Virus record (IMG/VR): IMGVR_UViG_3300027752_000095
Coordinates: 1-25,812 of that record
Strand: one strand, 5' to 3'
DNA length: 25,812 nt
Origin: a virus
This document shows positions 2,344 to 18,769 of this stretch, piece by piece. Numbering within the stretch: position 1 is the stretch's first letter; each line of letters begins with the position of its first letter. Under the pieces are notes generated by a model. It did not search any database. It saw only the letters and a list, made by a program, of their open reading frames with translations, and was not told where the DNA came from. The position numbers and the translations under genes were made by a program.

Positions 2344-2901
2344 TTATCTATACCAAGTAATTATTGAGTATCTAGTGCCTTTTGTTACAGGCATAATTTC
2401 ATGTGGGTACATAAAAGTAGAAGGGAACATTACCACATCACCTTTACCTGCTTTAATCTTCATCTCTCTATCAAAGAACCCAAACTCTCCGCCTTCGTAG
2501 TCATCATTCAAATGAAAAGAACAGCTAACTAATCTGGGTGCTTGTAAAAAACTATCAACATGCTCTATATAAAACTCTCCTTCATTATATCTAAGAAGCT
2601 CATACCCTGTATCTTCTTTTATATTAACAAGTTCAAATTTTTTATTATACTCTTCTATACATTTAGCAGCACACTTAAACATTTCTGCATCTAATCTTGC
2701 CCGTTCTTTGTTGTCTTGTATTACAAATGGTTGTGACATTTGAATAGTATTACAGTTACGTCTTGTTTTATCAACTTGTCCTAGTCCTATTACTGTGTGT
2801 TCCCACTCACTACTTTTAACATACTCAGCTAAAATAGCATCACATAATTCATCAGGAACTATGTTTTTTAATACTACGATATAGTCTTTAATATGTTCCA
2901 T
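2344..2901 (-). CDS. 2OG-Fe(II) oxygenase (prolyl 4-hydroxylase-like), third of the cluster
   Basis: A predicted Fe(II)- and 2-oxoglutarate-dependent hydroxylase; substrate unknown. Counting from a possible GTG start at 2916, the facial triad is His119-x-Asp121 (in YIEHVDS) and His172, with Arg182 (TKGTRYSIITWYR) positioned to bind 2-oxoglutarate. The double-Gly EGGEF motif before the last strands is typical of the P4H/PiuC-like group. I prefer the ATG at 2901 because AGGTGG lies 11 bases before it; the GTG start adds five residues (MDRKL). The gene overlaps the end of the second oxygenase by 14 bases. All metal ligands are present, so it should be active. Confidence 0.9.
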   Translation of the reverse strand: MEHIKDYIVVLKNIVPDELCDAILAEYVKSSEWEHTVIGLGQVDKTRRNCNTIQMSQPFVIQDNKERARLDAEMFKCAAKCIEEYNKKFELVNIKEDTGYELLRYNEGEFYIEHVDSFLQAPRLVSCSFHLNDDYEGGEFGFFDREMKIKAGKGDVVMFPSTFMYPHEIMPVTKGTRYSIITWYR

Positions 2902-3445
2902 CAGTTTTCGGTCCACCTATAATAGTTACTCCATCATAACAAAACCAAGTAACCACTACTTCTCTTGGTGTGGATGAAGGAGTTACATAATGTCCATACC
3001 CTCCGTGAGGTGAAAACACAACAACCTTTCCTTCTTCTGTCTTAATTTTTTTGTTTTGTTGTGGAAATACTAACTCTCCACCTTCATCATTAGTGCTTAG
3101 ATGTATCACTACTGAAGCATATCTAAGCAATCCATCCATCATCTCACCATCAGCATGTATGGTACACTCATCACCTACATTATATCTATGGTATTGATAT
3201 CCAGTATCTGCTGACTTATGCTGAGGATAAAATATGTCTTGCACTAACTCTGTTTGTATTTTTTGCATCAAATTATGCAATTTATTGTCTAGTTCTTTTA
3301 ACTCAGGCATTAAGGAAATCTCAACAGTATCTCCTCCTCTAGTGAAATACATATCTTTCTTGCCTAATCCAATATATTGTCTACTTTGATTCTTTATTTC
3401 TTGAATCAATCCTAAGTCTACATAGTTAGGAAATTCATATATCAT
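2888..3445 (-). CDS. 2OG-Fe(II) oxygenase, second of the cluster
   Basis: A 185-residue hydroxylase-type protein. The iron ligands are His97-x-Asp99 (TIHADGEM) and His152 (YGHYVTP), with Arg161 as the probable 2-oxoglutarate contact. The DEGGELVFPQ segment (about 120-129) and the GKVVVFSPHGGYGH segment (139-152) match the jelly-roll core of P4H-like enzymes. It is clearly diverged from its two neighbours, so this is an old gene family expansion or separate gains rather than a fresh tandem duplication. It overlaps the first oxygenase by four bases and the third by 14, implying translational coupling. The target may be protein, glycan or nucleotide; the sequence does not say. Confidence 0.9.
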   Translation of the reverse strand: MIYEFPNYVDLGLIQEIKNQSRQYIGLGKKDMYFTRGGDTVEISLMPELKELDNKLHNLMQKIQTELVQDIFYPQHKSADTGYQYHRYNVGDECTIHADGEMMDGLLRYASVVIHLSTNDEGGELVFPQQNKKIKTEEGKVVVFSPHGGYGHYVTPSSTPREVVVTWFCYDGVTIIGGPKTDGTY

Positions 3446-4002
3446 TGTGGATTTAATCCTGCATTAATTCTGTCGCCAAAATGTTCCCAATGCTCTCCAG
3501 TTCCCCTGACATAGTGCAAGAAAACCTGTATATACTCTTGTCCAGTAAACTTATCTCTCCAGTGTTCTGATAGTGTACCCTGATAAACAATAGCTTGTCC
3601 AGGTTTTAAATTTATAGCGATCTGCTCGCCATTAGGTTTAGTCATCCAAATATCCCAAGGGGTGTCTCCACCTAAATGAACAGTTAGACTTATCTCGCAT
3701 GAAGGTCTGTCTTTATGTTTTTTTAGTTCATCTCCATGAGTATACAACCTAGCATAGGTATAACTAGGCAACATATTTTCTTTCATCAACTCACTGATTG
3801 TCGGAAGTTTTTCGCAAAGAAGATTTAAAAAATCGCGGAAGTTGTACATCGCATAGGACAAAGGACACTGAGAGTCTTTATCAAACAAATGAGGGTATTG
3901 TTCTACATGACTTTTATAAGTATTAAAAAGCTCAGAGGCTCTTTCGGGAGAAATAAAGTTATCTATAAGTAAATAGTTATCTTGCTCTAATTGTTTATTC
4001 AT
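3442..4002 (-). CDS. 2OG-Fe(II) oxygenase-like protein, first of the cluster
   Basis: A 186-residue protein with the double-stranded beta-helix layout of 2OG-Fe(II) oxygenases. The likely iron ligands are His96-x-Asp98 (LKKHKDRPSCEISLTVHL) and His147 (GTLSEHWRDKF). The usual Arg or Lys about ten residues after the last His is not evident: the stretch reads TGQEYIQVFLHYV, with Gln155, Tyr157 and Gln159 in that zone. Cyanophage relatives I remember share the EHWR...QVFLHYV pattern, so this may be a subfamily trait with another 2-oxoglutarate anchor. The gene overlaps the methyltransferase by eight bases and the second oxygenase by four. Confidence 0.85.
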   Translation of the reverse strand: MNKQLEQDNYLLIDNFISPERASELFNTYKSHVEQYPHLFDKDSQCPLSYAMYNFRDFLNLLCEKLPTISELMKENMLPSYTYARLYTHGDELKKHKDRPSCEISLTVHLGGDTPWDIWMTKPNGEQIAINLKPGQAIVYQGTLSEHWRDKFTGQEYIQVFLHYVRGTGEHWEHFGDRINAGLNPQ

Positions 4003-4552
4003 TTATTAACTTTAAGTATGCTTGTTTACTTGTATTTATTGTAATACTGTATTTATTGTTATATAAATTTAAAAATGTATCTACTGCTTGTTTTGGATGA
4101 ATACCATGTTTTTCTGAGAACATATGATAGTCATCTATAATAATTAAACCATTCTCATTTAATAAAAAGGTGCTTAACAATAAATCACAAAATACATCTT
4201 CAGTTTTATGAGAACCATCCAAGTAAATTAAATCAAATTTTTGTTCTTTAGTTATAAGATTACTCAAAGCTTTAAAAGACTTTGTTTTAATTACATCAAT
4301 CTTTTTAGATGAGTTATGTTTTTTACACAGCTCTATATTAGAGTTAAACCTAGTTATAACTGCGGCAGATATATTAAAAGGGTCAATACAAGTAATAACC
4401 CCGTTATCATTTAACAAGTTCTCTGCAAACCAAATACTAGACCTTCCTTCAAAACTTCCAACCTCTAATATAGAATTAACTTGACTAAGCTTTTTCCATT
4501 CTGCTTGTTTACTTATATGCTCAAGGCTGTGATGAAATATATATTGGGCTAT
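3995..4552 (-). CDS. SAM-dependent methyltransferase (class I, Methyltransf_24-like) with apparent ATA start
   Basis: A class I Rossmann methyltransferase. Motif I is LEVGSFEGRSSIW (residues 29-41), followed by an acidic residue after strand 2 (Asp57 in CIDPF), FDLIYLDGSH (106-115) and GLIIIDDYHMF (136-146). The substrate is unknown. The start is unusual. No ATG, GTG or TTG lies between the upstream in-frame stop at 4577 and motif I; the first usual start codon (TTG, 4417) would delete the SAM-binding loop. A perfect AGGAGG (4564-4559) stands six bases before an ATA codon at 4552, giving a 185-residue protein of normal length. That ATA overlaps the TAG stop of the upstream gene. It heads the AT-rich operon with three oxygenases. 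Confidence 0.8.
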   Translation of the reverse strand: MAQYIFHHSLEHISKQAEWKKLSQVNSILEVGSFEGRSSIWFAENLLNDNGVITCIDPFNISAAVITRFNSNIELCKKHNSSKKIDVIKTKSFKALSNLITKEQKFDLIYLDGSHKTEDVFCDLLLSTFLLNENGLIIIDDYHMFSEKHGIHPKQAVDTFLNLYNNKYSITINTSKQAYLKLINE

Positions 4553-14010: not shown

Positions 14011-14469
14011 TTAAGCTGTACGTGTAAGTGTGTAACCTGTAGCTGAACCAGGAGTTACTCCATCACCGCCAGTAAACATCAAAGTGAATTGAGCCATACC
14101 AGTAGCACCGTTGGCGACAACTACTCTACCAAAAGCAACTGCAGAAGCAGTAATAGTAGCAGCATCAGATAATGATCCGCCAGTACCTAAAGCAATTGTT
14201 ACGTCGTCAGCACCGCCTGTGTTATCTACTACGAAAGAAAATTGTTGGCCTCTTACTGCAAGCATTTGCTGAGAGATTCCTGTAACACCACCTGCTGTAG
14301 TAGTAATAGGAAGAGTGATAGTTGTTGCAGCTGCTGAAGTAGAAGTAAGGTACCCTACTTGAAGATTTTGCGCTGTAACAGTTGCTGTAGCATTAACTGC
14401 TACTGAAGGGCCTGTTGGTACGAATCCGTTAGTTGAGGCAACGGGACCTGAAAATGTGGTTCTAGACAT
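14011..14469 (-). CDS. Virion structural protein (MSRTTFSGPVASTNGF family)
   Basis: A 152-residue beta-rich protein starting MSRTTFSGPVASTNGFVPTG, a start I know from structural proteins next to capsid genes in marine phages. The body is Thr/Ala/Gly/Val-rich with LQVGYLTSTSAAATTITLPI and QFSFVVDNTGGADDVTIALG. I take the ATG at 14469 because GGAGA lies seven bases before it; an ATG at 14487 is possible but has no ribosome site. It is the first gene after the terminator that closes the pqqA unit, and a TATAAT at 14583-14578 may help start its transcript. Exact position in the virion is unknown. Confidence 0.78.
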   Translation of the reverse strand: MSRTTFSGPVASTNGFVPTGPSVAVNATATVTAQNLQVGYLTSTSAAATTITLPITTTAGGVTGISQQMLAVRGQQFSFVVDNTGGADDVTIALGTGGSLSDAATITASAVAFGRVVVANGATGMAQFTLMFTGGDGVTPGSATGYTLTRTA

Positions 14470-14577
14470 TTGAATTTCTCCATACAAAGTTAAGCTTATC
14501 TGTCGTGTATGCGTCTGCTGGGGCAGTCATGATAAGCTGGTTTTACCCAGATAATTAATGGTACACGGTTTTACATT

Positions 14578-14583: not shown

Positions 14584-14610
14584 CAACAAAAAAGGGACCG
14601 AAGCCCCTTT
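14584..14610 (-). terminator. Rho-independent terminator with C(UUCG)G tetraloop after pqqA
   Basis: On the minus strand AAAGGGGC-TTCG-GTCCCTTT forms an 8-bp stem (one G-U pair) closed by the very stable C(UUCG)G loop, and the sequence then runs TTTTTTGTTG (counting the stem T residues). It starts 17 bases after the pqqA stop codon, so it ends that transcript. Confidence 0.88.
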
Positions 14611-14626: not shown

Positions 14627-14698
14627 TTACTTGTTCATTACGTACATTGTTACTTCAAAACCAAATCTCATTTCTGTTGCTTTAGGTGATGTCCACAT
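14627..14698 (-). CDS. pqqA: PqqA-like pyrroloquinoline quinone precursor peptide (23 residues)
   Basis: A 23-codon gene with ATG at 14698 and AAGGA six bases upstream. The peptide opens MWTSPKATEMRFG and continues FEVTMYVMNK. It matches bacterial PqqA in length and in nearly every diagnostic position: Trp2, Pro5, Arg11, Gly13, Glu15, Val16, Thr17, Tyr19 and Asn22. Klebsiella PqqA, also 23 residues, has the same Glu15 and Tyr19. In PQQ biosynthesis the radical-SAM enzyme PqqE, with the chaperone PqqD, links the Glu and Tyr side chains; later steps excise and finish the cofactor. No pqqB, C, D, E or F gene is seen here, so the host would have to supply these. The gene sits in a late, bracketed unit behind a membrane protein and before a strong terminator. 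A use unrelated to PQQ is possible. Confidence 0.82.
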   Translation of the reverse strand: MWTSPKATEMRFGFEVTMYVMNK

Positions 14699-14745
14699 AA
14701 TTAATCCTTAAAATGTAATATATAAGCAAAAGTGCTCATAGAAGA

Positions 14746-14751
14746 ATTATA
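14746..14751 (-). promoter_or_regulatory. Possible -10 element upstream of pqqA
   Basis: An exact TATAAT on the minus strand, which would place a transcript start about 40 bases before the pqqA ATG. The -35 zone (AGGGTG at 17 bases) is not consensus. The site lies in the 84-base gap between the membrane protein gene and pqqA, where nothing else is seen. Confidence 0.35.
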
Positions 14752-14782: not shown

Positions 14783-15133
14783 TCATGAGTTTTTACTCCA
14801 TATTTTAGACATCGCAAGGCACAGTAATCCAGCACCTATTCCTGTTACTATTGCTTCGGTAGATGGTCCCCCAAAGTGTGTAGGGTGAGTCATCATATCG
14901 GCTACTGCGGTAAAGAATCCAATAGCACCTGCCATAGCAAACTTGTTATCTGATAGGTTTTTATTACCATATATAACTAATGCTACTGTGGCTATAGAAG
15001 CAATTACGCCAACCTGTAATGCTTTTGCCCAGTGTCCTAAAGTAATAGCTGTTAGGTTACCCTGTGTCATCAGCACCATGCAAGAGGTAGTAGATTCAGA
15101 AAGTCTTTTTAGAAAAATGTTTAAGTGTTTCAT
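14783..15133 (-). CDS. Membrane protein, putative holin-like, upstream of pqqA
   Basis: A 116-residue protein with a basic N-terminus (MKHLNIFLKRLSESTTSCMV), then hydrophobic stretches at about 41-55 (VGVIASIATVALVIY), 65-80 (FAMAGAIGFFTAVADM) and 93-110 (AIVTGIGAGLLCLAMSKI), giving about three membrane segments. The loop MMTHPTHFGGPSTEAIVTGI resembles marine phage membrane proteins that I have seen called holin-like. It has no ribosome site; a TATAAT at 15145-15140 lies so close to the ATG that a leaderless transcript is conceivable. It stands between the capsid terminator and pqqA, so the two may form one unit. Whether it is a holin or a transport-type protein is open. Confidence 0.72.
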   Translation of the reverse strand: MKHLNIFLKRLSESTTSCMVLMTQGNLTAITLGHWAKALQVGVIASIATVALVIYGNKNLSDNKFAMAGAIGFFTAVADMMTHPTHFGGPSTEAIVTGIGAGLLCLAMSKIWSKNS

Positions 15134-15145: not shown

Positions 15146-15157
15146 CCCTATAAAAAG

Positions 15158-15187
15158 AAAAACCCAGCTGAGAGGTGCCGGGTTTTT
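15158..15187 (-). terminator. Terminator after the major capsid gene (possibly bidirectional)
   Basis: AAAAACCC at 15158-15165 pairs with GGGTTTTT at 15180-15187 around a 14-base loop. On the minus strand the stem is followed by CTTTTTATAG, giving a U-rich tail; the plus strand also ends in GGGTTTTTC. It lies about 50 bases after the capsid stop codon. The 105-base gap it occupies holds no gene. Confidence 0.85.
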
Positions 15188-15238
15188 CAGGAGATTAGCG
15201 CTCAGAACTATGAAAACTAAGCGCTAGGAAGTAGCAAG

Positions 15239-16147
15239 TTATGCACCTGCTGAACCCCACATACCTAATGGATCAGACCAACCGAATGAATATCTTTCAC
15301 GGGCTTTGTAACGTACATTACCTGTGTCGAAGTCACCGTCCATAGAAGTAGTTAATGCAGTTCTTTCGAAATGCTTCATACCGTTAGGAACGTCAGTTGT
15401 TAGGAAATAAGCGTCACCGTCTGTTAAGAAGTGATTTACTGAATAACCTTCTGGAATTGCACCATTAGTTCTTAATGCGTTGATGTCATTATCTGCAGTA
15501 GCTACACGAAGATCTGTATCTAATAGACGAGTTGCAACGAATTGAAGTGCTGGTGGAATAACTAACTTACGTGGTTTAGACGCAATTAGTAAGCCACGCT
15601 CATCGGTCCATGCTGCGATTTGAATAACTGCATTTTCCAACGCTGTTTCATTCAAGTCTGTAGCAACACCTTGTGTATTACTGTTAACACCACCCGATAC
15701 TAATGGATGATTTGCGTTAAACAATGATACACCATCACCACCTGCAAAGGCGGCAGTAAAGCCGTTGTTAAGAACGTTAGCTGCTCTAACTTGCTTAGTG
15801 TTAGCCATTGATCGTGCAAGTGCTTTAGTATAACGAGCTGACAATGAATCATATAGATTATCCTCAACTGCTTCTTCAGTTAAACTGAATCCTAAAGCAA
15901 TAGTCACGTGGTTGTAACGTGCTGTAAAAGCTTCTTGTGCGTTATCATACGCAATTGCTGCTCCCTCAGATTTCAGAGGTGCTGCAGCGAAGCCAGCTAG
16001 TTTTGTTTCTTCTTCGAAAGAACGGTCTGAAGATTCAGTTTCGTAAATCTCTTTATGCTCTTCGCCATAACGTGCATACTCTAAACCGAATAGCGCGTTA
16101 AGTCCTGGTAATAGCTCCTTTAGGAGCTGGGCTCTTGAAATTGCCAT
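15239..16147 (-). CDS. Major capsid protein
   Basis: A 302-residue protein starting MAISRAQLLKELLPGLNALF, a start I know well from major capsid proteins of marine phages related to the Mu gpT-like group; an HK97-type fold is expected. N-terminal residues 20-70 are charged (E-loop-like), followed by YNHVTIALGFSLTEEAVEDN (about 78-97), a helical spine SARYTKALARSMANTKQVRA (about 103-122), and NANHPLVSGGVN (about 143-154). The C-terminus has RYKARERYSFGWSDPLGMWG. It has a strong AGGAG eight bases before the ATG and a strong terminator after the stop, as fits the most abundant virion product. Its gene order (scaffold, two head proteins, capsid) is canonical. Confidence 0.92.
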   Translation of the reverse strand: MAISRAQLLKELLPGLNALFGLEYARYGEEHKEIYETESSDRSFEEETKLAGFAAAPLKSEGAAIAYDNAQEAFTARYNHVTIALGFSLTEEAVEDNLYDSLSARYTKALARSMANTKQVRAANVLNNGFTAAFAGGDGVSLFNANHPLVSGGVNSNTQGVATDLNETALENAVIQIAAWTDERGLLIASKPRKLVIPPALQFVATRLLDTDLRVATADNDINALRTNGAIPEGYSVNHFLTDGDAYFLTTDVPNGMKHFERTALTTSMDGDFDTGNVRYKARERYSFGWSDPLGMWGSAGA

Positions 16148-18310: not shown

Positions 18311-18769
18311 CTATGCGCGTTCGTAGCCACGAGGGTCATCGACCACTGCTTCTACGGTATCGTCGTTTATAATGCGGAATTCTTTTCCGTGAATTTTGAT
18401 TCTAGTCCCTGCGTAAGCACGAGTGATAACGAAGTCACCTTCTTTACACCAAGCGCCTGTAGGGAAACGAGCTTCGTCTTTATAACAAAGATCACCTAAC
18501 TGCATAACAAATAAAACTACTGTTGAGTGCTCTTGTATTTGTTTTGCAGAATCAGATTTTATAATCCCACTTTCGTAAGCTTCTTCTGCTTCAGGTACCA
18601 TACATAAAATACGATAACCTTTAACGTCAGGAAGTTGAGCTGCTGCTTGCGCTATAGCCTCTTCTTCAGTTAACTTAATGCCTTCTTTAGTGGAAGTGTT
18701 TTTTGTTTTAATAGGAGCTCCTGAAAGGGAGACTATTTTTTTGTCTGGAGTTGCAATGGTGGTATTCAT
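18311..18769 (-). CDS. GroES-like co-chaperonin (Cpn10 fold)
   Basis: A 152-residue protein with a disordered N-terminus (1-45) and a Cpn10-like domain from about residue 46. GYRILCMVPEAEEAYESGII (51-70) corresponds to the first strand and mobile-loop zone of GroES; KEGDFVITRAYAGTRIKIHG and KEFRIINDDTVEAVV to the last strands. Phage Cpn10 proteins such as T4 gp31 replace host GroES to fold the capsid protein in GroEL; the place next to scaffold and capsid fits that. The IKIHGKEFRIINDDTVEAVV ending is typical of marine phage versions. GGAGG within the upstream gene lies six bases before the ATG, and the start overlaps that gene (ATGA). Confidence 0.82.
   Translation of the reverse strand: MNTTIATPDKKIVSLSGAPIKTKNTSTKEGIKLTEEEAIAQAAAQLPDVKGYRILCMVPEAEEAYESGIIKSDSAKQIQEHSTVVLFVMQLGDLCYKDEARFPTGAWCKEGDFVITRAYAGTRIKIHGKEFRIINDDTVEAVVDDPRGYERA

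Follow-up and report, generated by a model that had tools for sequence, protein, structure and literature searches.

The pqqA gene and its surroundings in the window

The window, that is, the whole 25.8 kb stretch of DNA that was analysed, is an IMG/VR virus record with genes for a large terminase, a portal protein and a major capsid protein. Downstream of the capsid gene, on the minus strand, it carries a frame of 23 codons for a peptide of the PqqA type, together with the features listed here.

15239..16147, minus strand: major capsid protein (PHROG 371 major head protein, 1.4e-20; PF25209), which borders the gap upstream
15157..15188, minus strand: terminator after the major capsid gene, upstream border of the gap, also present in relatives
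14783..15133, minus strand: ORF of 116 aa of unknown function in the same gap as pqqA, with no Pfam or PHROG match
14746..14751, minus strand: TATAAT, putative -10 box of a pqqA promoter, 48-53 nt upstream of the gene
14705..14709, minus strand: ribosome-binding site AAGGA, read directly, 6 nt before the ATG
14627..14698, minus strand: pqqA, 23 codons, peptide MWTSPKATEMRFGFEVTMYVMNK, stop codon TAA; precursor peptide of PQQ
14591..14610, minus strand: intrinsic terminator after pqqA, AAAGGGGCTTCGGTCCCTTT followed by a T run, with a stem of 8 pairs
14011..14487, minus strand: next gene of the structural module, of unknown function, which borders the gap downstream

The peptide scored 38.5 bits against PF08042 (E 1.1e-9; gathering cut-off 21.1 bits), with all 19 model positions aligned, and 35.4 bits against TIGR02107 (E 6.6e-9; cut-off 20 bits), covering model positions 1-21 of 21. 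It was the single PqqA match in a six-frame search of the window record (14698-14627), and the same family search gave no PqqA match in 14 control genomes; no match was found to any solved structure. The PQQ-forming residues Glu15 and Tyr19 are both present with the E-x-x-x-Y spacing, together with Trp2, Pro5, Arg11, Gly13 and Asn22. The peptide has the same length and all the model positions of bacterial PqqA (PF08042, TIGR02107 and the dispersed copies of Methylophilaceae), with which it has Glu15-x-x-x-Tyr19, Trp2, Pro5, Arg11 and Gly13 in common. This comparison shows that the predicted phage peptide retains every residue needed for PQQ formation.

An earlier note on this DNA had recognised PqqA here from its length and key residues and had named the two family models as the way to check it, and both bear the identification out with scores above their thresholds. 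The coordinates that it gave were exact, but the strand was missing from the claim: the frame exists on the minus strand only, and a plus-strand reading of 14627-14698 was dropped, as no PqqA-like frame is found there. The good ribosome site and the terminator of its own that the note had described were both seen (AAGGA with a 6-nt spacer; 8-pair stem and T run), and the terminator has a folding energy of -10.8 kcal/mol (z -2.5).

The gene follows the 116-aa ORF in the gap that runs from the capsid terminator to the next structural gene; this ORF is missing from one relative (L273) where pqqA is kept. Among the relatives by capsid, 52 had 1.5 kb or more of downstream sequence, and five of these had pqqA in this gap (capsid identities of 100, 98, 91, 84 and 82%); the one with the identical capsid hardly differs from the window over 1.5 kb and does not count as a separate case. 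The search at the same place in related phages that had been proposed thus recovered the gene. No pqqA was found in that gap in the remaining relatives of the 52, and in those pqqA-less relatives that were read, the same two borders enclose different cargo or none at all; the leader of the 14011..14487 gene is conserved whether or not a relative carries pqqA. Since pqqA, other cargo or nothing is found there among relatives, the gap downstream of the capsid gene is, to judge from these comparisons, a cargo site.

Capsid proteins that share 63-70% identity with that of the window are found in Pelagibacter phages HTVC023P and HTVC027P, Synechococcus phage MinM2 and Planktothrix phage Pag-Yong1, and the nearest relatives of the window terminase are around 50% identical to it. 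The twelve phage records in which tblastn matched PqqA include none of these phages. As is asked of an auxiliary metabolic gene (AMG), pqqA lies inside a genuine phage genome, with terminase, portal and capsid genes in the same record, and it is present in isolates too.

The location of the gene also bears on whether pqqA could be a piece of a host gene at the attP of a temperate phage, for which the several short, conserved and solitary pqqA copies of the hosts would be convenient targets. We give this explanation very little credence: the window pqqA is embedded in the structural module, the window proteins that were scanned included no recognisable integrase, the full frame is retained with its ribosome site, promoter-like box and terminator, and its synonymous divergence is high (pS 0.74, see below), whereas the core of an attP must match the host.

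Scans of the window for Rfam families and tRNA genes gave no hit. Elsewhere in the window, residues 51-143 of an ORF at 18311-18769 (minus strand) match the PHROG of the phage co-chaperonin GroES (2.6e-11), and two adjacent genes for 2OG-Fe(II) oxygenases (PF13640) are located at 2344-3445 (minus strand), adjoining a 186-aa ORF without Pfam hit and a methyltransferase-like ORF (3995-4417).

pqqA in other phages and in Methylophilaceae

The peptide is of the methylophile type of PqqA. By tblastn, the same type was found in the records of nine methylophage isolates (P19250A, Venkman, MEP301, MEP401, MEP402 and four Melnitz) and also in the uncultured podovirus ctXG6705, and all seven genomes tested with the Pfam model scored above the PF08042 cut-off. 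A hit in Acinetobacter phage MD-2021a was rejected as host DNA, with pqqB, pqqC and pqqD adjoining. The neighbourhoods differ among the phages, in such a way that pqqA appears close to recombination genes, antisense to its neighbours, close to the end of the record or, in the T4-like Melnitz, next to a tRNA-Leu gene. Whereas the pqqA ORF of the window is 81-93% identical to those of the other phages (82-93% for phages of other lineages), the flanks (85 nt upstream and 80 nt downstream, compared ungapped) are 21-44% identical, near chance level, with the exception of the downstream side of one syntenic relative. These alignments show pqqA as a cassette that is independent of the differing phage genomes around it.

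PqqA is never annotated in the isolate records or in ctXG6705, where the frame is unannotated or overlapped by a "hypothetical protein"; in Melnitz MZ577097 (76100-76195, L008) the hypothetical protein MelnitzEXVC044M_152 was called antisense over pqqA, probably as a miscall. The suspicion of the earlier note that the gene is widely missed holds, then, for the isolates. Genes as short as pqqA escape the common gene callers, and a metabolic gene that recurs in cultured phages has seemingly been missed for this reason. The papers on OM43 phages PMC8024684, PMC10580990 and PMC9004378 do not mention pqqA, and in the last of them PQQ appears only as a medium supplement.

A pattern search of IMG/VR that fixes parts of codons 1-5 and codons 9-10 matched at least 120 contigs, and a complete PqqA is encoded by 118 of the 120 contigs among the matches listed; L098 is a chance match and not PqqA, and in L121 the frame is cut by the contig end and was left out of the complete count. 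Arg11, Gly13, Phe14, Glu15, Thr17 and Tyr19 are invariant among the 112 distinct phage sequences listed, where the translated filter had demanded Glu15, Thr/Ser17 and Tyr19 and only the chance hit and the cut hit failed it. For these 112 sequences, the entropy at the three codon positions averaged 0.27 (first), 0.22 (second) and 0.85 bits (third). In codons 11-23, untouched by the pattern, pN was 0.087 and pS 0.74, with a pN/pS of about 0.12, which is an all-pairs summary over related sequences and not a tree-based value. Glu15 and Tyr19 are thus kept in relatives, and the frame is conserved with changes biased to synonymous ones, both as anticipated in the earlier note. The ribosome site, the terminator and the pN/pS of 0.12 in codons 11-23 argue for a real coding gene and not a chance frame, as had also been held, and these analyses confirm positions 14698-14627 as a phage PqqA gene, solitary, conserved and, by its substitution pattern, under purifying selection.

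Host contamination of the viral contigs was considered and rejected, as blastn against host loci gave matches of more than 200 nt in nine loci, and these match L238 and, in the case of L049, L148/L151. L238 (CAIYXB010000030.1), a contig of a bacterial assembly, shares 81% identity with phage P19250A across 4.7 kb; it is apparently a phage contig binned with its host in a MAG.

Regarding expression signals, AAGGA or AGGAG is found within 20 nt upstream of 107 of the 115 phage pqqA copies listed (46 in shuffles), and a terminator-like site within 110 nt in 54 of the 117 copies listed (0-1 in shuffles). TATAAT is present upstream of 45 of the 115 phage copies listed (shuffle mean 20, maximum 27) compared with 1 of 133 host copies, and GTATAAT upstream of 25 of the 115 (shuffle mean 2.8, maximum 7) compared with none of the 133. 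In the window, no clear -35 was seen upstream of the TATAAT, and this box was not among the sites listed by a consensus promoter scan. The window type differs from bacterial PqqA in being phage-encoded, often with a TATAAT/GTATAAT box that host copies lack, and the enrichment of these boxes over both shuffles and host copies fits an independent transcription of phage pqqA from its own promoter-like box.

Selfish or neutral capture was considered as well, with pqqA as passenger DNA that moves between phages without benefit. The variable cargo gap and a place that differs between lineages would suit such a passenger, but purifying selection, without frame-broken copies in related phages, has largely been seen already, the gene has its own -10 box, enriched relative to host copies, and it is present in all nine methylophage isolate records found, all of which makes the idea highly improbable.

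In agreement with the earlier note, no other pqq gene accompanies pqqA in the window: pqqE was not found within the 25.8 kb record, which is a fragment, and tblastn for pqqB, pqqC, pqqD and pqqE, with positive controls working, found none in the window or in any of the viral loci. PqqE above cut-off was also absent from 50 virus records (48 that encode the full PqqA, together with the chance match L098 and the cut L121). Linkage to pqqBCDE, common in bacteria but not defining for PqqA, is therefore absent for the window pqqA; phage copies are not found with pqqBCDE in any record examined, and the extra copies of Methylophilaceae are solitary too. No dehydrogenase was found among the window proteins scanned, and a PQQ-dependent dehydrogenase is lacking in 49 of the 50 virus records searched. 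The other record, L049 (G023, IMGVR_UViG_3300025120_009955, 72 kb), encodes both pqqA and a PQQ-dependent alcohol dehydrogenase. The ORF beside its pqqA resembles DNA of the host pqqA loci L148 and L151 at around 67%; these two loci, from marine Nitrosomonadales MAGs, have two tandem pqqA genes around 200 bp apart that encode different peptides.

Bacterial matches to the same motif belong nearly all to Methylophilaceae. Eleven genomes of this family carry 1-12 scattered pqqA copies each, and a true PqqE was found in 10 of the 11, usually as a single pqqE per genome, the exception being an assembly of 0.9 Mb; 3-12 copies of pqqA, with the other pqq genes typically single, have been described (PMC4109929). 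This multiplicity, as expected of a precursor consumed one for one, suggests that the dose of PqqA matters to these bacteria. The host pqqA found to be nearest to that of the window (L182, Methylophilaceae assembly AH-578-I23) is identical in 66 of 72 nt, which supports a Methylophilaceae host for the window phage.

Proposed role of phage PqqA

The best-supported reading of these data is that phage PqqA would raise the PQQ output of the host. More specifically, we consider it likely that pqqA is a minimal AMG, which supplies substrate for PQQ and sustains methanol dehydrogenase in infection. During infection, a promoter of the phage itself would drive synthesis of the peptide, to which host PqqD would bind and which host PqqE would cross-link at Glu15-Tyr19; host PqqB and PqqC would finish PQQ from the cross-linked product. 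As one PqqA is consumed per PQQ while the enzymes are reused, substrate alone would be the cheapest way to keep PQQ synthesis going when host transcription falls. The PQQ would then serve the periplasmic PQQ-dependent methanol dehydrogenase, providing host energy while virions are made. Effects on PQQ output, methanol dehydrogenase and phage yield are what we infer from such a supply. Single-gene AMGs of the psbA/D1 type in cyanophages follow the same logic, with the phage contributing no more than the quickly used-up part of a host energy pathway; in the window, by contrast, this part is a consumed precursor peptide and not an enzyme subunit.

Published data bear on this proposal in both directions. 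Cell-free extract converts added PqqA peptide to PQQ, according to work cited in PMC9851590, and a Gluconobacter production strain was helped by expressing additional pqqA alone or the pqqABCDE cluster, as cited in PMC8102297. Selected pqqA copies are strongly expressed at peak PQQ synthesis (PMC9851590). The same paper suggests that PqqB or PqqC may be rate-limiting in a producer strain, which counts against substrate supply, as PqqA may not be limiting during infection.

A peptide encoded without the enzymes could also act as a decoy or regulator, titrating PqqD/PqqE, which it would bind in any case, and lowering or redirecting host PQQ synthesis. The earlier note had put this forward, and we find it quite improbable. 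A decoy would not need Glu15 and Tyr19 intact, yet both are invariant in the 112 distinct phage sequences listed. Moreover, the commonest host peptide is encoded exactly by 23 phage records among the matches listed, and phage peptides that equal the host peptide letter for letter, of which there are many, should be consumed as substrate.

If PqqA is supplied as substrate, the resulting PQQ, which has several uses, might also serve for antioxidant protection or for a PQQ enzyme besides methanol dehydrogenase. This appears rather unlikely, as the gene is found mainly in phages that infect methylotrophs, bacteria that depend on PQQ for their core energy reaction, and one relative also carries a PQQ-dependent alcohol dehydrogenase.

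A phage-encoded PqqA, as in the window, was described in 2020 in the T4-like Lake Baikal virus VP_266, with a predicted Methylophilaceae host, and an aid to methanol oxidation was proposed (PMC7678222); this answers the earlier note, which could not say whether phage pqqA had been reported. The VP_266 population also encodes methanol dehydrogenase, a combination similar to that of L049, and the window belongs to a different capsid lineage. Viral pqqA has also been listed among phosphorus-cycle genes (PMC13188868, 2026). That pqqA occurs on its own in each cultured methylophage examined, and in several lineages unrelated to one another, was not found described in a literature search that was incomplete, so an earlier report is possible.

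On balance, we lean towards the broader proposal that solitary pqqA is near-universal in Methylophilaceae phages, placed independently in unrelated lineages with phage-type promoters, and would be a general control of host methanol oxidation. Methylotrophy in the abundant marine OM43 and freshwater LD28/Methylopumilus bacteria begins with PQQ-dependent methanol dehydrogenase, and infection by viruses would have a direct effect on methanol turnover if phages routinely supply the PQQ precursor. In addition, pqqA would serve as a simple marker by which phages of methylotrophs can be recognised in sequence data. Venkman, Melnitz, MEP301 and MEP401 are in culture together with their hosts, so the proposal is directly testable.

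Other types of PqqA were also seen on viral contigs. The type DLRFGFE[IV]TMY is carried by 22 more contigs (L356-L377), some of them apparently the same sequence repeated, which may come from phages that infect other hosts; PqqE did not score above cut-off in any of these records. With a pattern of the alphaproteobacterial type, L353 and L354 were rejected as chance matches, and L352 and L355, IMG/VR contigs of 266 kb and 18 kb and of putative phage or host origin, encode a PqqA of this type (MKWSAPIVQEVCVGMEVTSY...).
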